From NCBI RefSeq assembly GCF_000167355.1, contig NZ_AAEW02000006.1, forward strand, positions 1-64,000: a stretch of 64,000 nt of DNA, in the 5' to 3' direction. This DNA is from Desulfuromonas acetoxidans DSM 684 (GTDB lineage Bacteria; Desulfobacterota; Desulfuromonadia; Desulfuromonadales; Desulfuromonadaceae). Both the position numbers and the translations under genes were made by a program. The notes under the pieces are model-generated. The model was not told the DNA's origin, searched no databases, and saw only the letters and a list, made by a program, of their open reading frames with translations. Positions 4,071-16,333 of this stretch are shown here, one piece after another (the stretch's first letter is position 1; each line of letters starts with the position of its first letter).

Positions 4071-6671
4071 GTGCGCCCCCTTCTCTTTATTTTTTATTGT
4101 TTAATCTTCACTCTTGTCTGTTCCCCATGCTGGTCCGCTCAGGAGAACAACGGCACCGCTGCCGGAGCTGTTAGTGAACAAACATCCACACCCTCGAGCG
4201 AAGCAGCCGATGCCTCACCACAGGCGACGGTATTCCCCGGCGTCTCTGAGGTGGTTTCACGCCTGGCAACACTGAACAACAACACGGCGTCCACCTCAAC
4301 ACAACTGGATGAGATAACGGCGCTGGAACAAACAAAAGACAACCTTGACAAAGTGATGGAGCGTCAGAAAACCCTTGATCAACGGCTCAAGGAGTTGGGA
4401 GATCCGGAACAATGGAGTTTTGAGCGACTTCTGGAAACACGCAGTGTCCTCGTTGGTCAGCTCGGCAATCTCAAAGCGATCTTTGAAACACTTTCTACAA
4501 AATTAACCACCCTCGACAACCTGCGCAACCAATGGCAACAGCGCAAAATTTTTTGGGTGGAATGGAAAGCTTATCTGACAAAAGAAAACACCGAGTTTCC
4601 CGCAGCAGAATTCGACCGTGCTGACGAAAAAATCGCTGCACTGCTCAAACAAATTGCCGATGCCAGCGGCAAACTCATTGCCGTACAACAGCAGGTGGTT
4701 CTGATTCAGGACGGCAATGAAGCCACCGTGCGTCATATCGATACAGCATTAAAAAATCTGCGCTCACAGATTTTCAAGAAAACCGCCCGATCCTTTGCCA
4801 GCAGCACCTTTTATGCGCAGTTCAACACCGAACTCAATCAGCAGGTCAAAGACAATTTCAATCTGGTGCAGTGGTACCGCACAAGCTATCTGCATGACTA
4901 CTGGTGGGTCACGGTGATGCAGTTAATTCTGGCTCTGGTGCTGGCGGTCAACCTACGCAAGCATCGTAAAAAGGATGATGCATCCCAATGGAACATCCTG
5001 TTCCGTCATCCCTGGGCCGCCGGTTTATTTGTCGCCTTTGCCACCCTCAGTCCACTGTATAAGGCACCGCCCTTAGCATGGACTTTTTATCTGCTGGTGA
5101 TCAGCGTCATTGCCGCCAGCATCCTCGTGGCCGGGATTGTACCGGAACGTCGCCACGCCATGCTGGTCTGGCTATTGGCCTTCATCTATCTGATCTCCAT
5201 GTTTTTACAGGTGATTGGCCTGCCGTTACCGTTTTTACGTCTTTACCTGGTGGTCCTGTCCCTGATCGGCATTCCTCTGCTGGCCCGGATGTGCCTGCTG
5301 AGTCGCCGCAACAAAGACTCCTGGCAGCTGATCATCGGACAGCGCATCGGGATTATTGTGTTAACCATTTCCCTAATTGCTCAGCTCGGCGGTTACAGTA
5401 CCCTGTCCTTGCGTCTGGTCGACTCGGCCATCAAAACCGTCTTTGTGTTGCTGATGGTGTATATGGTCATGCGCCTCACTCAAGGCGGTATTGACTATCT
5501 CCTCGGTCACCCGTGGGTGCAAAGCTGGAAGTTTTTCAAGATTTTCGGCTCCCGCCTCGCCCGCCGCATCAATCATTTTATCGTCGGCGCACTGTTCATT
5601 TACGGCATGCTCTATACCGTACAGATCTGGGGCGGCAGTGACAGCGTAACCACCACCTGGTTGGCGGTCAAAGATTTTGGAGTCACCGTTGGCGAGGTTG
5701 AGCTGACACTGAGCACCGTGATCATGGTGGTGATGATCATGTACCTGGCGTTCAGTCTCTCCTGGTTCATGCGTTCGTTGTTTGATGTCGAAATTGTCGG
5801 ACCGCGCTATATGGATAGTGGCTTGCGCGATTCCCTGAAAACCCTGCTCCACTACATCATCATCTCCTGCGGCCTGTTACTGACGCTGGGATCCCTGGGC
5901 ATCGGCTTGCAAAGCTTTGCCGTCATTGCCGGTGCCCTCGGTATCGGGATCGGATTTGGTCTGCAGAATATCGTCAACAACTTTGTCAGTGGCCTGATCC
6001 TGCTGTTCGAACGCCCCATCAAACTCGGTGACCGGATCATTCTCGATGGGGAATGGGCGATTGTCCGCAAAATCGGTCTGCGTTCCACAGTGATTGAAAC
6101 CTACAACCAGGCGGAGATCATTGTCCCTAACAGTCAGCTGATTTCCGAAAAGGTCACCAACCTGACTCACAGCAATTCACGGGCACGGATCACGATCGAT
6201 GTCGGTGTTGCTTATGGGGAGGATATTGAACGGGTGCTAGCCATCCTCAAAGAGGAAGCCAAAAATAATCCAACCGTTCTCAAATACCCGGAGCCGTCGC
6301 CGTTGTTCGTTGCGTTCGGGGCCAGCTCTCTGGATTTTAAATTACGTATCTGGTTGGAAAATTTTGACCAGAGTCTTGATGTGAAAAGTGATCTGAGTGT
6401 TGCCATCTACAAACGGTTCGATCAGGAAGGGATCTCCATCCCCTTCCCGCAACGCGATCTGCATTTACGCTCCGTGTCGGACAACGTCTGGGAAAAATGG
6501 CGCGGTCCTAAAACACCGGTCAATTCAGAACCAGCGTTTCCAGTGGAAAACGACCATCAAGCCAACACCGATAACCAGCAGGCAGAAACAGAACAGCAGG
6601 AAGGCGACAGCGGAATGCGCCCCGGGGATACCACCGAGATTGACACCGAACAAACCGGTGAAAAAGGATAA
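4071..6671 (+). CDS. Large MscS-family mechanosensitive channel (MscK/MscM-like)
   Basis: Predicted inner-membrane channel that opens under membrane tension to release solutes after osmotic downshock. I chose the GTG at 4071 because AAGGAG sits 6 bp upstream and it gives a signal peptide ending CWSA; the frame is open upstream to another GTG at 4020. The 866-aa protein has an N-terminal periplasmic, helical/coiled region (about 30-270), roughly eleven membrane segments (about 275-650), then the MscS pore helix rich in Gly/Ala (ALGIGIGFGLQNIVNN, about 620-640) and the cytoplasmic beta domain. It is shorter than E. coli MscK/MscM (about 1100 aa), mainly in the periplasmic part. The last ~49 residues are a hydrophilic Gln/Glu/Thr-rich tail encoded antisense to the zntB-like gene, an unusual 147-bp convergent overlap. 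Confidence 0.88.
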   Translation: MRPLLFIFYCLIFTLVCSPCWSAQENNGTAAGAVSEQTSTPSSEAADASPQATVFPGVSEVVSRLATLNNNTASTSTQLDEITALEQTKDNLDKVMERQKTLDQRLKELGDPEQWSFERLLETRSVLVGQLGNLKAIFETLSTKLTTLDNLRNQWQQRKIFWVEWKAYLTKENTEFPAAEFDRADEKIAALLKQIADASGKLIAVQQQVVLIQDGNEATVRHIDTALKNLRSQIFKKTARSFASSTFYAQFNTELNQQVKDNFNLVQWYRTSYLHDYWWVTVMQLILALVLAVNLRKHRKKDDASQWNILFRHPWAAGLFVAFATLSPLYKAPPLAWTFYLLVISVIAASILVAGIVPERRHAMLVWLLAFIYLISMFLQVIGLPLPFLRLYLVVLSLIGIPLLARMCLLSRRNKDSWQLIIGQRIGIIVLTISLIAQLGGYSTLSLRLVDSAIKTVFVLLMVYMVMRLTQGGIDYLLGHPWVQSWKFFKIFGSRLARRINHFIVGALFIYGMLYTVQIWGGSDSVTTTWLAVKDFGVTVGEVELTLSTVIMVVMIMYLAFSLSWFMRSLFDVEIVGPRYMDSGLRDSLKTLLHYIIISCGLLLTLGSLGIGLQSFAVIAGALGIGIGFGLQNIVNNFVSGLILLFERPIKLGDRIILDGEWAIVRKIGLRSTVIETYNQAEIIVPNSQLISEKVTNLTHSNSRARITIDVGVAYGEDIERVLAILKEEAKNNPTVLKYPEPSPLFVAFGASSLDFKLRIWLENFDQSLDVKSDLSVAIYKRFDQEGISIPFPQRDLHLRSVSDNVWEKWRGPKTPVNSEPAFPVENDHQANTDNQQAETEQQEGDSGMRPGDTTEIDTEQTGEKG

Positions 6672-7502
6672 CGGCAGAAAAATCGCGGCAAAGATATTGA
6701 TAATATACATTCGAGCGTTGAGCTGGTCGGAAACTTGCGCCTGCAATTCCTCCTGAACGATGACAGTCCGATCGCGCACTGCATCCAGATCCTCCATGTG
6801 GCGTTGCAACCGGTTGCGGATCTCTTTGAGATGCATCAGGGTCCGCTCGTTAAACCAGCTGGGAGGCTCAACAGATAAGTGCGATAAGGCATCGCGTTGC
6901 GGAGCCAGATAGCGGCGTGGCGTGACCACACGCCGCCGTAAATTGGAGATGGCCTCACGCCGGCGCAAATGATCTTCAGCAAGGTCGCTTTGTTCGATCA
7001 ACTCCACCTCATCTTCATAATCATCAATCATCTGACTGACATACCATTCCAAACGATCACACAGTTCTGAAAACAGTCCTTGGGTGGTTTTAGGACCACG
7101 CCCCTGGACAAACTGTTGCTGAATGTCCCGGATGGACGCCATAGGCTTATTACTCAAGGTGATGATCCGGTCAGGGTCCAGCCACACCCGTAGCGAGACC
7201 ATATCCTCCATCGCTTCGTCAGGATTTTTATTAACCCCACGCAAACCAACGAGAGCCCCCTGATCAAAAAGAGCGACTCGCGGACGGCTGTCCTCAGCGG
7301 TCATCGCTTCAACCACAAGGGGATCAAGACTCTGGCGTGTCAACCACTGCTGAATCTGTGCATCTTCATAATCACAATGCACCCAGACTTGATCGTGGCT
7401 GCGTCCGTTCTGCAACAGAGCCCACTCAAGAACTTCAGCCCCGCCATTGCCATCGAGATGTCTGGCAAAATGGAATCCTTGCGGTTTCTCGTTGATAGAC
7501 AT
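6525..7502 (-). CDS. zntB: CorA-superfamily transporter, ZntB-like
   Basis: Predicted zinc (divalent cation) transporter of the inner membrane. The 325-aa length matches E. coli ZntB (327 aa). The N-terminal two thirds is a soluble, charged funnel domain with a long helix. Two C-terminal membrane segments follow, separated by the signature G-V-N (286-288) then LGGIPG, typical of ZntB rather than the GMN of CorA magnesium channels. The start at 7502 has GGAG 5 bp upstream and fits the family length; the frame stays open to 7622. The final 147 bp, carrying the GVN loop and the last membrane helix, lie opposite the 3' end of the mechanosensitive channel gene. Both reading frames look genuine at their ends, although the channel tail could be dispensable. 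Confidence 0.87.
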   Translation of the reverse strand: MSINEKPQGFHFARHLDGNGGAEVLEWALLQNGRSHDQVWVHCDYEDAQIQQWLTRQSLDPLVVEAMTAEDSRPRVALFDQGALVGLRGVNKNPDEAMEDMVSLRVWLDPDRIITLSNKPMASIRDIQQQFVQGRGPKTTQGLFSELCDRLEWYVSQMIDDYEDEVELIEQSDLAEDHLRRREAISNLRRRVVTPRRYLAPQRDALSHLSVEPPSWFNERTLMHLKEIRNRLQRHMEDLDAVRDRTVIVQEELQAQVSDQLNARMYIINIFAAIFLPLSFFTGLFGVNLGGIPGAHSAVAFLLFCFCLLVIGVGLMVVFHWKRWF

Positions 7503-7715
7503 ACGTTCTCCAGATAGAGGGAAATATCTATTCAAATTACCCTGTCGTCTGAAAAAGGGCAACTGCCTCACGCCTTTTCCCGCCCATCCAACAAAGCCCA
7601 TGACAAACAGATGATATACCAAAACGTGTAGTAAATATGCTAATATACGCCGAAACGGACATTCATTTTAGCCTGCTGTCAAACCACGCAGATAAAAATC
7701 GGCTCCTAGACACAA

Positions 7716-7736
7716 TCTCAAGCATCATTCTTGAGA
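7716..7736 (+). promoter_or_regulatory. Hairpin upstream of the autotransporter gene
   Basis: A perfect 7-bp inverted repeat TCTCAAG-N7-CTTGAGA lies 44 bp before the ATG at 7780. It may be an operator or a leader stem. No clear -10/-35 pair was identified nearby. Confidence 0.35.
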
Positions 7737-7779
7737 CATTACAGTCCTCAAGACGGTTACCCATCCCGAAAGAGCGCCA

Positions 7780-10770
7780 ATGAAAAAGCTTTATATAATT
7801 ATCCCATTTTTGATGATGGGGCTTTTCCCTCCAGCACCATGCCATGCAAATGAGATACTTGAAATCGGTCTGTTTCAGGTAGAATTGCTTGCCCCTGGAG
7901 AATCAGCATCAACAGCTAACGGCATGTCTATTACTGGAACCACCGTCTGGACTGAAGAGCAAAAAACAGCCTTAATCTCCTCTCTGGACATCCTGAACCT
8001 GTCATTGGCTAATTCTGCAGCTCGTCCAGTTCGCATCGCCATGGCCTGGAGTGACAACCTCCCTCAACAAATCCTCGGCAACTCCGGAAGTTCACATTTT
8101 CTGTATCCCACAAGCGGAGAGTTGAAAACAACGGCTGAAGCTGCATGGCGCGATGGTGATCCAACCGATTATGCTCCCGGTACTGCTGATATCGCTATCA
8201 ACTACAACAGTGCGTTCGATTTTCATTATGGTAAAGGACTGCCGGGGTATTTTGTTGATTTCCGATCGGCCGTCACCCATGAAATTATTCATGGATTGGG
8301 AATCACCTCAGGTTATTCCCAAAGCAGTGGATTCTATGGGGTCACTCGCTGGAGCAGCTTGATAGAAGATAGTGATGGCAACCGGGCAGAATACAGAACA
8401 TTAGGGACCCCAAATCCTCTGACTGTTCTCGGCCCACAAGGAACGTTATTGTGGCTGGGAGACTATGCCAATGCAACCCACGGCGGACCGGTGCCGATCC
8501 AAACGTTTGTGGATGAGTTCCTTCCAGGCTCCAGTATGGTCCACCCCGCGCCCATGGGGGAATTAATGAGCTGGACAGGAAATTTTGGAGAAAAATCCCG
8601 CGCGCCCAACAAGTTACTTTTGGACATGTTCCGTGACTTGGGTTGGGAGATCAATATGGACTTCTACAATTCCTTTGGTCCGACCTCCTATCTTAATAAT
8701 ACGACCCTTGAAAGTGCAGAAGTCTTTCTGTCTGACTATGATTACAGCTATGCCTTCTACGTTAACGGTGACAACAACGAGATTGTGCAAAGTGGCGTGT
8801 TGGAATCGCGCGGCGACTTTTCAGATACACTTCGCCTGGCCGGCAGGAACAATACTCTAGAGGTTATAGGTAGCCTCACCGCCAAGGGTGATTATTCTAC
8901 CGCACTTTATGCGGTGGGTGAGCAAAACCACATTCAAGTCTCCGGTAACATAACAGCACAAGGAGAGGACTCGGTCGGAATCTACCTCCCTCAATGGTAC
9001 TACTCATACAATACCCTTATCTTATCTGGAGCTACCATACAAGCAGAGACCGCCGTGTACTCCCCTTATGCAAATCCACTCTTCATCCTCAATGATTGCC
9101 GGATTAACGGAGACATCATCACCGATACTTTTTCCGGGGTGGCATTTGGCGGCATATGGGATTTTAATACAGACGAGGTTATCTCTTTAGTCCCTGATTT
9201 CAGCTTCCGCTTTGATGATGACATCATCGGCAATTGGATCGGTCATCTTGGCACCGGAGAACTCAGCCTGAATGGCAATGCTGAATTTTCGTCACTGACC
9301 ATTCATGAACCGGCGACCCTTAAAGGCACCGGCACCATTTATGGCCCTGTCATCAATTACGGGACTATCGCCCCAGGTAATTCAATTGGCACCCTGTCGA
9401 TTGACGGTAACTACACGCAGCTGGCAGGTTCTGTGCTGGAAATTGAAGCCGGAGGGGGTACAGCGGACCTGCTCCAGGTTTCCGGCACGGCCATTATCCA
9501 AGGTGGCAACTTAATGGTGATCCCTGAGGGGTATCTGACCAGCGGCAACTACACCATCCTTGAGGCCAATGCGCTACAGGGGACATTCGATGACCTCTTA
9601 AGTCCGGCCGTGTTCTCTGTCGCTTTCGACGACACGGCGATCAACAGCCTCACACTGGATATTGCCAGAAACAGCTATGCCTCTCTGGCGGCAACAGCTG
9701 ATCAGATCAGTCTTAGCCAGACTCTGGATGCCATCCGTCCAAATGCTAGTGGTGATACGGCAGAGATCCTTAACACCATAGATGGCTTAACGCTACCGGC
9801 CTTACATGGAGCACTGGATGACCTGCTGCCGCGTTTCCATAATTCAGTGACCGGCGCGTCTCTGGACGCAATTCATCAACACAGCGCTCTTCTTGCTCAA
9901 CAAATCGATTCAGAGCTGAGCCCGCAACTGCAGCGCCATGTCTGGCTGCGCCTTGTTGCCGATAACGCCCGCTACGAAGAGACCGCGCACAGCCCGGCGT
10001 TTCGCGCCAAAACCAACGGTCTGATGATGGGGATCGAGCAGCAGATCGCCTCTGGGTTGCGGATCGGCATGGCCGGAGCCTACAGCAACGCGGACCTGCA
10101 TGAACTCGATTTCGCCTCCACAGCAGACCACCTGTCATGGGACGGCTATCTGTATGCCCGTTGGGATGACGAAGTAAAAAACGGGGGCTGGTTTGCCCAA
10201 ACCATCCTCAACTCCGGAACAGACAGCTACGACACCAAACGCACCATTGCCTTTCTTGGCCGTCAGGCGAAAAGCGAGCATGATGCTGGCCATGGTTCAC
10301 TCTCCGGCCATGGGGGCTACCGCTTTACTGTGGATTCATGGAGTATTATTCCATCGTTCGGTTTGGAGTATCTGTGGTTGCAGGAAAACGCCTTTAGCGA
10401 ACATGAGGCGGAAGGAGCATCCCTTCACGTCAGCAGCAAAGATTCACAACGCTTTTGCAGTCAGACAGGATTAAAGATCGAGCACTCTTCTACCTTCGAA
10501 GAGATAAGGCTGGTCAGTCAATTGGCTGCGCTGTGGAATCATGCCTTTGATGATGAAACTGAGCACACCCAAGCCCAGTTGATTGACAGTGAAGAGCATT
10601 TCTCTATTCAGGGGCGTGATAGCGCACAAGACAGCGTTGAATTGATCCTGGCGCTGCATGCCATTTTCGTGAACGGCATCACGACCCGACTGGGTTATCA
10701 ACGCACGCTTCAGAAGCATGGCGGCTACCGCTCCAGCCAAGTGAATTTTGGTCTTGAGTGGGCATTATAG
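7780..10770 (+). CDS. Autotransporter with HEXXH metalloprotease-like passenger
   Basis: Predicted type V secreted surface protein of 996 aa. A signal peptide (about 1-23) is followed by a passenger whose first part contains H167-E-I-I-H171-G-L-G, a zinc-metalloprotease signature; the HGLG continuation resembles metzincin-like secreted peptidases. Residues about 330-610 are repetitive, Gly/Asn/Thr-rich and beta-rich, as in passenger beta-helix stalks. Residues about 700-996 read as the C-terminal autotransporter barrel. The passenger could be a surface-attached or released protease, but activity is inferred from the motif only. The ribosome site is weak (AAAGAG). A hairpin lies in the leader and another between this gene and the convergent 10865 gene. 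Confidence 0.8.
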   Translation: MKKLYIIIPFLMMGLFPPAPCHANEILEIGLFQVELLAPGESASTANGMSITGTTVWTEEQKTALISSLDILNLSLANSAARPVRIAMAWSDNLPQQILGNSGSSHFLYPTSGELKTTAEAAWRDGDPTDYAPGTADIAINYNSAFDFHYGKGLPGYFVDFRSAVTHEIIHGLGITSGYSQSSGFYGVTRWSSLIEDSDGNRAEYRTLGTPNPLTVLGPQGTLLWLGDYANATHGGPVPIQTFVDEFLPGSSMVHPAPMGELMSWTGNFGEKSRAPNKLLLDMFRDLGWEINMDFYNSFGPTSYLNNTTLESAEVFLSDYDYSYAFYVNGDNNEIVQSGVLESRGDFSDTLRLAGRNNTLEVIGSLTAKGDYSTALYAVGEQNHIQVSGNITAQGEDSVGIYLPQWYYSYNTLILSGATIQAETAVYSPYANPLFILNDCRINGDIITDTFSGVAFGGIWDFNTDEVISLVPDFSFRFDDDIIGNWIGHLGTGELSLNGNAEFSSLTIHEPATLKGTGTIYGPVINYGTIAPGNSIGTLSIDGNYTQLAGSVLEIEAGGGTADLLQVSGTAIIQGGNLMVIPEGYLTSGNYTILEANALQGTFDDLLSPAVFSVAFDDTAINSLTLDIARNSYASLAATADQISLSQTLDAIRPNASGDTAEILNTIDGLTLPALHGALDDLLPRFHNSVTGASLDAIHQHSALLAQQIDSELSPQLQRHVWLRLVADNARYEETAHSPAFRAKTNGLMMGIEQQIASGLRIGMAGAYSNADLHELDFASTADHLSWDGYLYARWDDEVKNGGWFAQTILNSGTDSYDTKRTIAFLGRQAKSEHDAGHGSLSGHGGYRFTVDSWSIIPSFGLEYLWLQENAFSEHEAEGASLHVSSKDSQRFCSQTGLKIEHSSTFEEIRLVSQLAALWNHAFDDETEHTQAQLIDSEEHFSIQGRDSAQDSVELILALHAIFVNGITTRLGYQRTLQKHGGYRSSQVNFGLEWAL

Positions 10771-12069: not shown

Positions 12070-13419
12070 TCACCACTGGGTAATGGCGTACTTTTCAAGA
12101 CGGTAAAGTAGCGTATGTCGCGGAATACGCAAAAAGGCTGCAGCCTGGCTTTTATTTCCCCGACAGTAACGCATGGCCTGGATCACCGCCTGACGCTCAA
12201 GCTCTTCGAGGGAGTAGCCTTCCGGCGGTAATTGAAGCACGGATGAAGATTCTGACGAACGACTTTTAATATGGGGAGGCAGGTCATTCAGGTCAAGCTG
12301 ATCGTTGTGACGTAAAATAAGCATTTGCTCGACAACATTATAGAGCTCGCGAACGTTCCCCGGCCACGCATATTCGGCAAGGCCCTCATATAACGTTTGT
12401 GCGATCTGTACACCGCGCCCCTGGGGGTGGTGGGTAACAAAATGATCGACAAGCAAGGCAATATCATCACGGCGCTCACGTAACGGAGGCAGCGTCAACG
12501 GCACAACGGCCAACCGATAATAAAGATCCTGTCGAAAACGCTGTTGGCTGATCTCCTCATGCAAGTCGCGATTGGTGGCCGCAACCAATCGCACATCAAT
12601 GCGGCGACTCTGTCCCCCCAGCGGTTCGATCTCTTTTTCCTGCAACGCACGCAGCAACTTAGGCTGCAAAGCCAGCGGCAATTCGGCGATCTCATCGAGA
12701 AACAACGTCCCACCATGGGCCAACTCAAAACGTCCCTTCTGATCTTTAATTGCACCGGAAAATGCTCCTTTGACATGACCGAACAACTCACTTTCCAGTA
12801 AATTTTCAGGAATTGCTGCACAATTTATGGCGACAAACGGTGCCATGCGCCGCGATGACACCTGATGAATTTGACGCGCCACAAGTTCTTTACCGGTACC
12901 GCTCTCACCAGTAATCAGCACCGGAGCCTGGCTCAACGCCACCTTATCCACCTGATCCAGCACCTGACGCAAGACCTCAGACTGGCCAATGATCGGATGT
13001 GTCGACTCCTGACGTTGCAACACTTCATGCAGTTGGGTGTTTTCGCGCCGCAACGCCCGATATTCAAAGGCACGCGCGACAGCCAGACGCAACTGTTCAC
13101 CGCTGAAGGGTTTGGTCAAATAATCATAGGCGCCACTTTTCATGGCACCGACAGCCTGTTCCACCGTGCTGTAAGCGGTAATAATGATCACCAGGGTTGC
13201 AGGAGACTCCGCCAGCACTTTCTCAAGCACCTGATAGCCACTCATCCCCTCCATCCGCACATCCGTAACCACCAAGGCCGGTTGATGATGGCGAAACAGC
13301 GGCAGCGCTTCCTCACCACTGGCAGCGGTCAAGACCTGATAGCCCGCCTCCTGCAGGGTGAATTCAATGACCCGGCGCATTGAAGCATCATCGTCAACCA
13401 ATAAAACGGATTCAGACAT
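12070..13419 (-). CDS. Sigma-54-dependent response regulator (NtrC/ZraR type)
   Basis: Activator of sigma-54 promoters driven by phosphorylation. The 449-aa protein has a receiver domain (about 1-120; acidic pocket D9-D11 and phospho-acceptor D53), an AAA+ ATPase (Walker A GESGTGKE near 170, Walker B FLDEI) and a C-terminal Fis-type helix-turn-helix (about 410-449). The sigma-54 contact loop reads GAFSGA instead of the usual GAFTGA, a conservative change. AGGAG lies 7 bp before the ATG at 13419; the ATG 6 bp earlier is too close to that site. The gene overlaps the kinase gene by 8 bp, so translation is probably coupled. The shared palindrome before the kinase and before cusC makes copper/silver efflux a candidate target. 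Confidence 0.92.
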
Positions 13420-14536
13420 GGTCATTCTCCTGTGTCGGGGTCAGATCAGCCAGGGGTAAGCGTAATTCAAAACAACAGCCCTGTTTCGGCAGACTTTCTA
13501 CCATAATGGAGCCCCCATGATTGTGTACTATCCGCTCGGTAATCGCCAAACCAAGCCCAGTTCCTTTGGATCGGGTGGTATAAAACGGCTTAAAGATTTT
13601 TTGCCGTTGCTCCTCAGTCAACCCCGGACCGGTATCACAAAAACGCACCACCGCCCTATTCTCATCCGTTGTCGCCAGAATGGAAAGACAACCGCCTTCA
13701 CCCATGGCTTGCAAGGCATTAAGAATCAGATTAAGAAATGCCTGTTTGTACTGGCTGGCATCACCGGCAACGGAATTGGCCACGTCAACGTCAACATCAA
13801 CAGCCACCCGGTTTTTACGGGCTTTGACAGCCGTCAACTGAACGACGTCATCGAGGATCGGGGCCAGAGAAAATTGCTGTTTCTCCATTGAGTCCGGACG
13901 GGCATAGCGCAGATAATTTTCCAGAACCTGATTGAGACGATCCACCTCATTGATCAGAATCGTAGTAAATTCGTGATAGCGATCTTCCGTACTGAAAGCT
14001 CCCTGAAGGATTTCCGCCGTGCCACGAATCGAGCCGAGCGGATTGCGAATCTCATGGGCCAGCCCGGCGGAGAGTTCACCGAGGGTGGTCAGACGGTCAG
14101 CCTGGCGCAACTGTTCTTCTATCTCGAGAATCAGGTCCGCCTGCTGACGCAACTGATCGTAGCTCTCCTGCAACTGTACGGCGGTTTCTTCAGCCCGCAA
14201 ACGCTGGGCATGTTCCTTGGCCATCAAGGTTCCGGTGAGAGCGCCGATGACGTTATACATCATGATCTCCAGATAGCGCTCAGGAGCCGTCCATGGCAGA
14301 TGGCCCCACTGCATCAGCACATGGGGCAGATAAGCAATGGAAATAAACACCGATGTGCCCAATCCGCCACGCACACCAAACCAGACACCACCGAGAACAA
14401 TGGGGATATAATAAAGGCGCCGATAGACATCATGGAGGTGGGAATGGTGGGTCATTGTTGTGTAATGCAACGATGAAATGCCCACCACCAGGATCAGCAG
14501 TAAGATCACGCGAAAAGATGTTTTTTTCCACACCAT
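13412..14536 (-). CDS. Membrane sensor histidine kinase
   Basis: Partner of the sigma-54 regulator immediately downstream. The 374-aa protein has three to four N-terminal membrane segments (about 8-22, 42-60, 62-78, 92-106) with little periplasmic sequence, a coiled linker (about 107-145), the H-box AHEIRNPLGS with phospho-acceptor H161, and an HATPase domain with N, G1 (DTGPGL) and G2 (GTGLGLAI) boxes. The short loop between segments 1 and 2 carries several histidines (THHSHLH, 29-35), compatible with metal sensing, but this is inference. AGGA lies 7 bp before the ATG. A 16-bp palindrome sits 20 bp upstream of the start. Confidence 0.9.
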   Translation of the reverse strand: MVWKKTSFRVILLLILVVGISSLHYTTMTHHSHLHDVYRRLYYIPIVLGGVWFGVRGGLGTSVFISIAYLPHVLMQWGHLPWTAPERYLEIMMYNVIGALTGTLMAKEHAQRLRAEETAVQLQESYDQLRQQADLILEIEEQLRQADRLTTLGELSAGLAHEIRNPLGSIRGTAEILQGAFSTEDRYHEFTTILINEVDRLNQVLENYLRYARPDSMEKQQFSLAPILDDVVQLTAVKARKNRVAVDVDVDVANSVAGDASQYKQAFLNLILNALQAMGEGGCLSILATTDENRAVVRFCDTGPGLTEEQRQKIFKPFYTTRSKGTGLGLAITERIVHNHGGSIMVESLPKQGCCFELRLPLADLTPTQENDHV

Positions 14537-14679: not shown

Positions 14680-15225
14680 ATGACGTGGGCTGGGCTGCTA
14701 AATAACCCGCAGCCGCAGGGTGGGCACCGGCCACCCGTTAGATCGGTGCCACGGGAAAAATAGAGCGAGCCGCAGGCCTATTATCAACGTTTTACGCCAA
14801 AGCTGATGACGCGCTCGATTCGCCGACCTTGCAGACGGTTGTAAACCGTCTGTGGAGCCCATGGACGGGCGACCACCATCAATAGATGGTATAAGCAAGA
14901 CGGAAATCGCATTTTCGGCTTGCGTTATTGGCAAACACAGGAGGTGTTTGTCCAATATTCTTATTGTTGCGGCGAGCCGAATCTGTGAAGCATCACAGAA
15001 ACCGACCCAGTGTCGGTTGAGCTAGGTTCAGGAGAAGTTCAGCCGGCTTTTGCATCCTTTTGGGCGGCTTGCCAAAAGGATGTCGCCTGCCGGGGCGAAT
15101 CCCGGCGACCTTGACTTTGATCTTCAGTGGTTCATCAAGTTGAGCCAACTTCTCCAGCGAACCTCATCCGTTCGCGTTGTTAGTCCCCACGTGACGTGGG
15201 CTTCCGCGCCCACACGTCGGGTCCC
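14680..15225. repeat. Hairpin-array repeat, copy A (with ~134-bp extra segment)
   Basis: Non-coding repeat matching 15416-15816. Conserved blocks lie at 14715-14834 and 14969-15124, plus a tail at 15184-15221. Short perfect stems include 14832-14852 (CAGACGGTT/AACCGTCTG), 14875-14890, 15000-15018 (AACCGAC/GTCGGTT), 15053-15082 (11 bp, CATCCTTTTGG), 15089-15106 (GCCGGG/CCCGGC), 15157-15175 (GCGAAC/GTTCGC) and 15186-15200 (CCCAC/GTGGG). The segment 14835-14968 is absent from copy B and carries its own hairpins. Small open frames here, such as one at 14698-14955, have no start signals and look spurious. Confidence 0.8.
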
Positions 15226-15415
15226 TTTTGCGTCGTCAAAAGGAACCGAAAAACGACTCCCGACCATTGCGCCCTAACGGGTTCCCTCACTCCACTCGCT
15301 TACACCGTGATGTCGGCAAGAACTCGGTCTGTGTCCCACAGCCCTCAAACATTTGCCGACGACCATCACAGCGACGCTCCTTGCGTTCGGCGCTACTGAA
15401 CGGGAGGGCTGGGCG
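15226..15415. other. Spacer between the two repeat copies, also hairpin-rich
   Basis: No credible gene. Stems continue here: CCTTTTG/CAAAAGG (15224-15243), and a nested pair with outer arms GTCGGCAA (15312-15319) and TTGCCGAC (15353-15360) enclosing CTGTG-TCC-CACAG (15329-15341). The spacer therefore has the same architecture as the repeat copies. Confidence 0.6.
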
Positions 15416-15816
15416 GCGAAATAACACGCTACCGCAGGGTGGGCACCGCCCCACCCGTTTAACCGGTGCCACGAAAAAGATGGAGCCAACCGGCTGATTG
15501 TTATCAACGTTTTACGCCAAAGCTGATGAGGCGCACGATTCGCCGACCTAAAGGGCGGCGAGCCGAATCTGTGAAGCATCACGAAAACCGACTCATTGTC
15601 GGTTGATCTAGGTTCAGGAGAAGTTCAGCCGGCTTTTGCATCCTTTTGAGCGGCAAGTCAAAAGGATGTCGCCTGCCGGGGCGAGTCCCGGCGACCTTGA
15701 CTTTGATCTTGGTTTTTCTGTGGTCCGCATCATGGAACCAATTGCTCCGGCGAACCTCATTCGTTCGCGGTGATGGTGCCCACGTGACGTGGGCTTCCGC
15801 GCCCGCACGTCGGGTG
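15416..15816. repeat. Hairpin-array repeat, copy B
   Basis: Second copy of the repeat at 14680-15225, displaced by 719 bp in the first block and 586 bp in the second; the difference equals the extra segment of copy A. Two tracts of roughly 28 and 40 bp are identical between copies. The same stems recur at 15586-15604, 15639-15668 (10 bp), 15675-15692, 15750-15768 and 15779-15793. Base changes mostly fall in loops, as in CATCCTTTTG, where the loop differs but the arms do not. It ends about 20 bp from the stop codon of the last cus-operon gene, so its first hairpin may act as that operon's transcription end. Confidence 0.8.
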
Positions 15817-15835: not shown

Positions 15836-16333
15836 TTATTCGGGTAACACCGTCTTAAAAGTAAATACCCGCTTCTGGCCATCAACCAGCATACTGCCGA
15901 CGGTAAAGGTGTACTCACCCGGAGTCGCCAGGGTCACATCAGCACCAAAATGCCCCTGCATTCCCATCAGTTTGATTGCCGGAAGCTGTTGCCCGGTCGG
16001 GAGAGTCACTTTCACCGCGACGGAGCCCTGGTCGAGATTCGCGTCCGTGGCCTGATCATGCAGCATCACCATAAAGTGATGGGTGGTGGTCATGCCCGCT
16101 TCAGACATGGCTTGGCGGACATCCTTGAGGTGCGCCATGGCGGTCACGCCGTGGATCTCCTGTTGGCCGAGCATCACTTCATTACCGGCCATCTGCATAC
16201 TGTCCATTTTCATACCGACATGCTGTTCCATGCTGTCCACTTTCGTGGTATTGCCTGCGCAGCAATCGCTGGCAAACGCAACCATGGGCAATGCGAGAAA
16301 AACTAACAGCATCAACGTCATTTTTTTCATCAT
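15836..16333 (-). CDS. Met/His-rich periplasmic protein of the copper operon
   Basis: The 165-aa product has a signal peptide ending VAFA-S (about residue 22). The region behind it has two adjacent cysteines (DCC) and many Met and His residues (about 35-90: MEQHVGMKMDSMQMAG, THHFMVML), typical ligands for Cu(I)/Ag(I). The C-terminal half (about 95-165) reads as a small beta-sandwich. It is the last gene of the cusCBA operon, 12 bp after cusA, with GGAG 5 bp before its ATG. A metal chaperone or sponge handing copper to CusB is inferred from composition and position; I do not recognise the exact family. Confidence 0.75.
   Translation of the reverse strand: MMKKMTLMLLVFLALPMVAFASDCCAGNTTKVDSMEQHVGMKMDSMQMAGNEVMLGQQEIHGVTAMAHLKDVRQAMSEAGMTTTHHFMVMLHDQATDANLDQGSVAVKVTLPTGQQLPAIKLMGMQGHFGADVTLATPGEYTFTVGSMLVDGQKRVFTFKTVLPE

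Follow-up and report, generated by a model that had tools for sequence, protein, structure and literature searches.

What kind of element fills the gene-free stretch of about 1.1 kb between a sensor histidine kinase gene and the genes of an efflux pump in Desulfuromonas acetoxidans DSM 684? The window analyzed here, meaning the whole stretch of 64,000 nucleotides at the start of contig NZ_AAEW02000006.1, contains it at positions 14680 to 15816, where an earlier note made from the sequence alone had described short hairpins in two diverged repeat copies.

Hairpin array in the window

The two copies were confirmed by direct repeats of 80 to 94% identity, namely 14969-15124 versus 15555-15710 (94%), 15115-15222 versus 15708-15815 (80%), 14731-14829 versus 15451-15549 (83%) and 14687-14732 versus 15406-15451 (87%), and the example stems of the earlier note recur in the same order in both. 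Its description of a region built almost entirely of perfect stems went too far: 12 perfect stems with arms of at least 7 and loops of 3 to 20 were present, compared to 1.3 ± 1.1 in 200 dinucleotide shuffles (maximum 4), but their arms cover 186 of the 1137 bp. Compared to its shuffles, the full-length unit B folded better, with z -4.2 as DNA and z -3.4 and -2.9 as RNA of the two strands. Rfam at gathering threshold gave no family in the window, as the earlier note had supposed, and a search of two further loci, L058 and L067, that admitted E up to 1 gave none either. The array region had no match in plasmid records.

The array is truncated at both ends (Table 1), and the RND pump genes beyond it carry ACR_tran and HlyD_D23 domains (Pfam). 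The two-copy view captured real copies, but copy A is interrupted by a 139-bp insert and the window array is one member of a large family.

Table 1. Features of the array and its neighbors in the window (R1, covariance model of the two-hairpin module)
Feature	Position	Strand	Details and basis
Whole array	14687-15815	+	Partial unit, one full unit, start of third; nhmmer with the 48-full-unit profile, direct repeats
Unit A, right part only (profile 234-539)	14687-15124	+	Split by 139-bp insert; profile match
139-bp hairpin-rich insert within unit A	14830-14968	+	Relatives ~91% identical elsewhere
Two-hairpin module, unit A right end	15048-15108	+	R1 77.6 bits, E 1.2e-23
Short spacer S1	15109-15194	.	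Contains 35-bp linker 15125-15159; R1 and linker positions
Unit B, full length (profile 1-540)	15160-15711	+	Profile match
Two-hairpin module, unit B left end, inverted	15195-15251	-	R1 37 bits, E 3.5e-10
Long spacer S2 (interior, genus-dependent)	15252-15633	.	Profile and R1 matches
Fit to IHF consensus, TATCAACGTTTTA, in unit B	15502-15514	+	Same in unit A at 14782-14794
Two-hairpin module, unit B right end	15634-15694	+	R1 79.4 bits, E 3e-24
41-bp linker toward next unit	15712-15752	.	
Third unit, first 62 positions, broken inside left module	15753-15814	+	Profile match; R1 E 2.3 only
Neighbor: sensor histidine kinase, HisKA and HATPase_c	13412-14536	-	Start codon 150 bp from array
Neighbor: 165-aa protein, no Pfam match, adjoins RND pump genes	15836-16333	-	Stop codon ~20 bp from array

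Unit family in the window genome

In the window genome (G000; 3.82 Mb, 51 contigs), a blastn search with the array region gave at least 85 pieces, the best 40 of 163 first candidates being scored. The window, 36 regions around blastn pieces and 12 regions around insert copies were read. The unit profile has 540 positions and was made from 48 full copies with a median pairwise identity of 84%. Tandem units are mostly joined via linkers of 34 to 47 bp, which gives a period of about 580 bp, and Tandem Repeats Finder, whose longest period is 500, was for that reason blind to the unit and returned no row for the window. At least 67 arrays or fragments, counting one lone hairpin and counting arrays split by an insertion sequence (IS) twice, span 54.3 kb of the regions read, corresponding to 1.4% of the genome, and with the best 40 first candidates scored, further copies are likely.

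The array ends fall at many different unit positions, a pattern more in keeping with deletion or recombination than with clean insertion. Locus L171 has elements (831-1312 and 6260-6786) that consist of two inverted left halves, so half-units stand alone. On the 3' side of L045 (GGTCCT/GGTTTT) and of L064 (GACCTT), the arrays give way to six-base microsatellites.

By naive ORF calls, 20 of 47 arrays lie between convergent, 24 between codirectional and 3 between divergent genes (convergent versus divergent, P = 0.0005). Divergent promoter regions are avoided, as expected of tolerated or 3'-side elements. The gene families recurring most beside arrays are the IS, found at three arrays, GGDEF-type proteins, found at five, and ATP-binding transport proteins; the latter two are read as ordinary paralogues.

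Two-hairpin module across the order

Loci of other genera matched the unit profile mainly at positions 455-540, and in two of the four such loci tested these matches repeat every 500 to 620 bp. The matching part is a module of 61 positions with two palindromes, the A/T-rich one with TTTTGC and then arms such as CATCCTTTT/AAAAGGATG, and the G/C-rich one with arms GCCGGG/CCCGGC. The covariance model R1 (61 positions, 15 pairs) was built from 24 motif-cut aligned examples. It matched both ends of the window unit in inverted orientation; the unit thus consists of two inverted copies of one module around an interior, and this interior differs between genera.

The earlier note had proposed a covariance model search among relatives. 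With R1 at a threshold of E 1e-5, the E-values being rough and the best 40 or fewer candidates being scored per genome, at least 122 of 134 genomes and 47 of 53 genera of the order had the module, and 12 genomes had none. The order is presumably that of the metal- and sulfur-respiring Desulfuromonas and Geobacter. Eleven matched genomes had supplied training sequences; outside training, at least 111 of 123 matched. In the phylum sample, where the best 18 or fewer candidates per genome were scored, R1 matched at least 15 of 297 genomes, including 5 order members, and thus at least 10 of 292 outside the order, the best with E 4e-15 (G397). A unit-derived pattern run over named genomes gave 16 stretches, 12 in the metagenome-assembled genome (MAG) Desulfuromonas sp. 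BM513, 2 in a Desulfuromonadaceae MAG and 2 in betaproteobacterial MAGs. The betaproteobacterial matches (L091 and L097) cover little of the unit profile and are read as chance. The only match of the module in plasmid records was a weak one in Variovorax (E 0.01).

The modules alternate. Among neighbors less than 700 bp apart in the loci read, 230 of 239 obey the rule that a minus module is followed after 250 to 700 bp by a plus module, or a plus module after less than 250 bp by a minus module; because these loci were selected by matches and are in many cases orthologous, the count is evidence of the rule and not of its whole-genome frequency. Inverted module pairs were seen in seven families (f1, f3, f5, f6, f8, f14, and f19), and a short spacer, of 45 to 179 bp, only in f1, f5, f8, and f14. 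Outside the genus Desulfuromonas the long spacers measure 323 to 534 bp except for one in G038, which has 217 bp. In another family, L215 of genome G107 holds a long array (6209-9267) with five consecutive inverted module pairs.

Covariation of the palindrome arms

Compensatory changes, which the earlier note had suggested looking for, were abundant. In 71 distinct matches, aligned to R1 and hence fitted to the model itself, 99.0% of 1056 cells were paired, with 198 double changes, 5 one-sided changes and 11 unpaired cells. The 198 double-change cells compare to 58.8 in shuffled alignments, and the covariation score was 0.489, whereas shuffles gave 0.119 and slid partners no more than 0.086. 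The separate 24-sequence alignment agrees (34 double changes, 0 one-sided, 98.1% paired).

RNA helices usually pass through G-U. Here, U-G pairs occupied 6 of 1056 cells in the 71-match alignment, and double changes with hardly any G-U point therefore to DNA palindromes rather than RNA. Across nine hairpins of 87 full units, 89 G-T and 82 A-C cells, which are not independent of each other, favored neither strand. Selection on the palindromes, or their mechanical upkeep, is supported. Template switching can perfect palindromes, and the double changes can come from it or from selection for a DNA hairpin, the data fitting both. The earlier note took arms kept while loops tend to vary as a hint of selection on structure; the arms covary over 87 units and in other genera, with mechanical upkeep as the other possible cause.

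Sequence constraint and unit numbers in related species

At the window site, the related genomes G008, G007, and G002 also hold an array, with different unit numbers. Orthologous sites were compared in 38 comparisons involving 29 arrays with both flanks matched; ten rows of L178 (lone hairpin, flanks matching a repeat, negative spans) were excluded. Arrays occupied 36 of the 38. The other two (L059:8186 versus L110; L171:831 versus L121) have long unaligned flanks and were not counted as empty. No clean empty site with a target duplication was present among the 38, and as the loci were picked for having matches, the rate of absence is not estimable from them. Several sites keep the same outer edges despite different unit numbers, such as L169 of the window genome and L129 of G008, which share ends at profile positions 214 and 193-247 while G008 has three units more.

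Unit identity, measured over the best stretch in a comparison to the entire other locus, which favors the units, was compared to identity at fourfold-degenerate sites of the flanking genes. It was 84.1% versus 68.0% for G002 (11 pairs), 83.4% versus 65.3% for G007 (11 pairs) and 86.1% versus 80.6% for G008 (10 pairs). With four pairs added and the two rows with unaligned flanks left out, units exceeded fourfold sites in 35 of 36 comparisons, the sole exception being the window site versus G008 (78.9% versus 85.8%). Median identities over all pairs of full units were 81.5% between the window genome and G007 and 81.8% within G007, and 82.6% between the window genome and G002 and 84.0% within the window genome; G008 showed some species clustering (88.7% within versus 85.4% to the window genome). 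With so little clustering, homogenization within species alone fails to explain the likeness between species, whereas constraint would explain it.

Inserts and an IS element within arrays

Relatives of the 139-bp insert of the window array, about 91% identical, were found at L063 and L059 of the same genome and at L108 of G007. A piece of about 30 bp of this insert (AAGACGGAAATCGCATTTTCGGCTTGCG) also occurs outside unit matches at L054 (1475-1445), L116 (1252-1281), and L135 (1343-1308).

Another, optional insert of 161 bp has a fixed position within the unit (profile 102/104) in 39 of 40 matches, some of which represent one place read twice. Among 136 order genomes, 5 had the insert, all of the Desulfuromonas-type genus of the window; it is absent from the window array and most units and had no match in plasmid records. 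Most copies in G000 and G008 are 96 to 100% alike, above the unit identity. At L058 (5212-5372) and in 33 other rows of the first alignment, the insert is very well conserved and carries a reverse-strand ORF with mostly synonymous changes in 13 codons. The insert core is also a free-standing hairpin, judged by sequences mostly in G002. This hairpin, GTCAGCAAGGCAC...CTATGGC...TAACG, is related to the insert core and is a separate dispersed repeat (G002; L178 4039-4118).

Three arrays, L048 (2787-3905), L056, and L172, have an IS element at an identical position within the A/T palindrome, with an apparent 3-bp duplication in L048 and L056. Its protein of 372 aa has rve and HTH_21 domains, so the element is probably IS3-like. 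IS1397 and ISKpn1 of the IS3 family are described as inserting into REPs (PMC1525189).

IHF consensus in the long spacer

The long-spacer sequence TATCAACGTTTTA agrees with the IHF consensus, WATCAANNNNTTR, and a fit at this aligned place occurs in 66 of 87 units, versus 0.042 fits per 540 bp outside the arrays and 0.010 in mononucleotide-shuffled units. Of 23 long spacers from seven other genomes, 2 contain the exact consensus, both being copies of a single G026 repeat, and one short spacer of G009 also fits it. IHF as a general feature of the element was rejected on the 2 of 23; the consensus may matter in Desulfuromonas but does not define the element.

Alternative explanations of the arrays

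Transcription of the units into a structured noncoding RNA, one of the readings offered in the earlier note, agrees with the covarying arms and with the better-than-shuffled folding of the window unit on both strands. It is nevertheless very unlikely in view of the 5 one-sided against 198 double changes and the 6 U-G cells, the balance of G-T and A-C, the negative Rfam searches of the window, L058 and L067, and an interior that is not conserved between genera; it was rejected on the wobble counts. Even less credit, close to none, is given to the idea that the array serves a small peptide gene, the reverse-strand ORF MATTDNAADVKKIRNNSVKAD of the 161-bp insert at profile position 102. Its ATG and TGA are present in all 34 rows of the first alignment, and over 13 codons the synonymous share was 0.60 versus 0.24 shuffled (1 of 200 shuffles). 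However, the frame on the opposite strand gives the same signal (0.61), the full ORF performs weakly (11 of 200 shuffles), later copies lack the start (L179) or the stop (L168), most units and the window array are without the insert, and no relative was found in Pfam, NCBIfam, PDB, phages, or plasmids. With this unconvincing coding test, the putative gene is unproven.

If the arrays derived from an ordinary transposon of the DDE or Y1 type, as its remnants or as MITEs, this would explain why the inverted end modules and changing interior resemble transposon ends, R1 being inverted at both unit ends like the terminal inverted repeats of a MITE; Y1_Tnp is also common, with matches in 115 of 134 order genomes. 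Such an origin is distinctly unlikely all the same. At the four Y1_Tnp loci of the window genome, with about 1.5 kb on each side, neither a unit match nor a module-flanked RAYT gene was present; R1 reached E 0.11 at best, which is not significant, and the insert profile gave one weak match (L192, E 0.0065). Modules were present in 16 of 19 order genomes without a Y1_Tnp match, and Y1_Tnp in 9 of 12 module-free genomes, several of them incomplete, so a Y1 or RAYT mobilizer found no support in these loci or in order-wide co-occurrence. Two neighboring RAYT-like genes (L193 and L194) are flanked by short tandem CCTCGTTTCC and GGGTAAACTA repeats. No autonomous relative was found in the loci read, where two inverted pairs 0.7 to 2.6 kb apart enclose what we take to be a gene pair of toxin-antitoxin type (L232) and a host dehydrogenase-like gene (L110), neither pair being transposon-like. 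A degenerate protein-coding mobile element, the explanation that the earlier note had set against its own, likewise did not appear in these loci or beside the arrays. Closer to plausible, yet still unlikely, is that the units are chromosome-organizing sites kept by selection for IHF, HU, gyrase, or another protein and not mainly a mobile repeat. The frequent IHF consensus in Desulfuromonas units over a low background, the conservation of units above fourfold sites of flanking genes and the module in at least 122 of 134 order genomes argue for it, and PMC2817692 reports an interaction of IHF with the inter-REP sequence of BIME-1 and binding of gyrase by BIME-2. The consensus in just 2 of 23 long spacers elsewhere argues against it, as do the 12 of 134 order genomes without the module among the best 40 or fewer candidates per genome.

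Relation to known palindromic repeats

The closest likeness is to the BIMEs and REPs of enterobacteria and relatives, which (PMC2817692, PMC1525189) consist of palindromic units that alternate in orientation, have two intervening segments and are joined head to tail; they are extragenic and numerous, with compensated arm changes, and a target of IS3-family elements. The arrays show the same alternation with two spacers (230 of 239 close neighbors, the short spacer in f1, f5, f8, and f14) and are extragenic with many copies (at least 67 arrays or fragments in the regions read, placed by naive ORF calls). In contrast to BIMEs, the unit here is a two-palindrome module of 61 positions, the long spacer mostly measures about 320 to 530 bp, no RAYT gene flanked by the module occurs in the window genome, and the module is common to an order while the interior changes. 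A GTAG-type start is missing, too: of 373 distinct modules, 2 carry GTAG and 21 carry either GTAG or GTGG in the 26 nt on the 5' side of the A/T palindrome, with about 16% expected by chance, which is no sign of a GTAG/GTGG-type REP start at this palindrome. In REPINs, palindromic units are paired in inverted orientation as a miniature unit; the inverted pairing is alike, and the window unit is much longer.

Geobacter and Pelobacter belong, as we assume, to the same order as the window organism. In the parts available of their genome papers, multicopy intergenic sequences are reported, some of them palindromic, with some families paired on opposite strands and IS elements at a fixed distance (PMC2700814, PMC2996986, PMC3543383). 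The motifs in the available legends (GTTGCTYN, CCYTC repeats) are unlike the module by eye, and earlier sightings of the module there are possible. The main text of PMC2267715 is without the words Geobacter and Deltaproteobacteria. No named family or partner matching the element was found in the open-access sources searched.

Possible origin and role of the arrays

Taken as a whole, the arrays are probably a BIME-like extragenic palindromic mosaic with a bipartite palindrome of its own and no detected RAYT partner. A nonautonomous element or a protein-binding site was the better half of what the earlier note had guessed; we infer mobility, a binding partner and a function of the arrays along the following lines. 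The module would form a hairpin or cruciform in DNA that is recognized by a protein, and this recognition would once have spread the element to many sites in trans, as nonautonomous mobility. Since then, recombination between direct units would have lengthened and shortened the arrays. Modules may be kept because a host protein of nucleoid, topology, or repair function uses them, or because template switching perfects the palindromes. Wide presence together with constraint makes a function plausible.

A more specific proposal is possible, although it falls short of being probable: the order would have its own class of bipartite DNA palindromes, a candidate protein would bind them and need both hairpins in inverted pairs, and a REP-like system evolved apart from RAYTs would exist in most genomes of the order, as a site of chromosome structure or as the end of a trans-mobilized hairpin element.

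The element is present in at least 122 of 134 sampled genomes of the order and makes up at least 1.4% of the window genome. If a host protein uses the module, it would offer a new handle on chromosome organization in the order; if the element is selfish, it would represent a system of palindromic repeats without a tie to RAYTs. Both ideas can be tested with the module model, the alternation rule and the arrays whose unit numbers differ.
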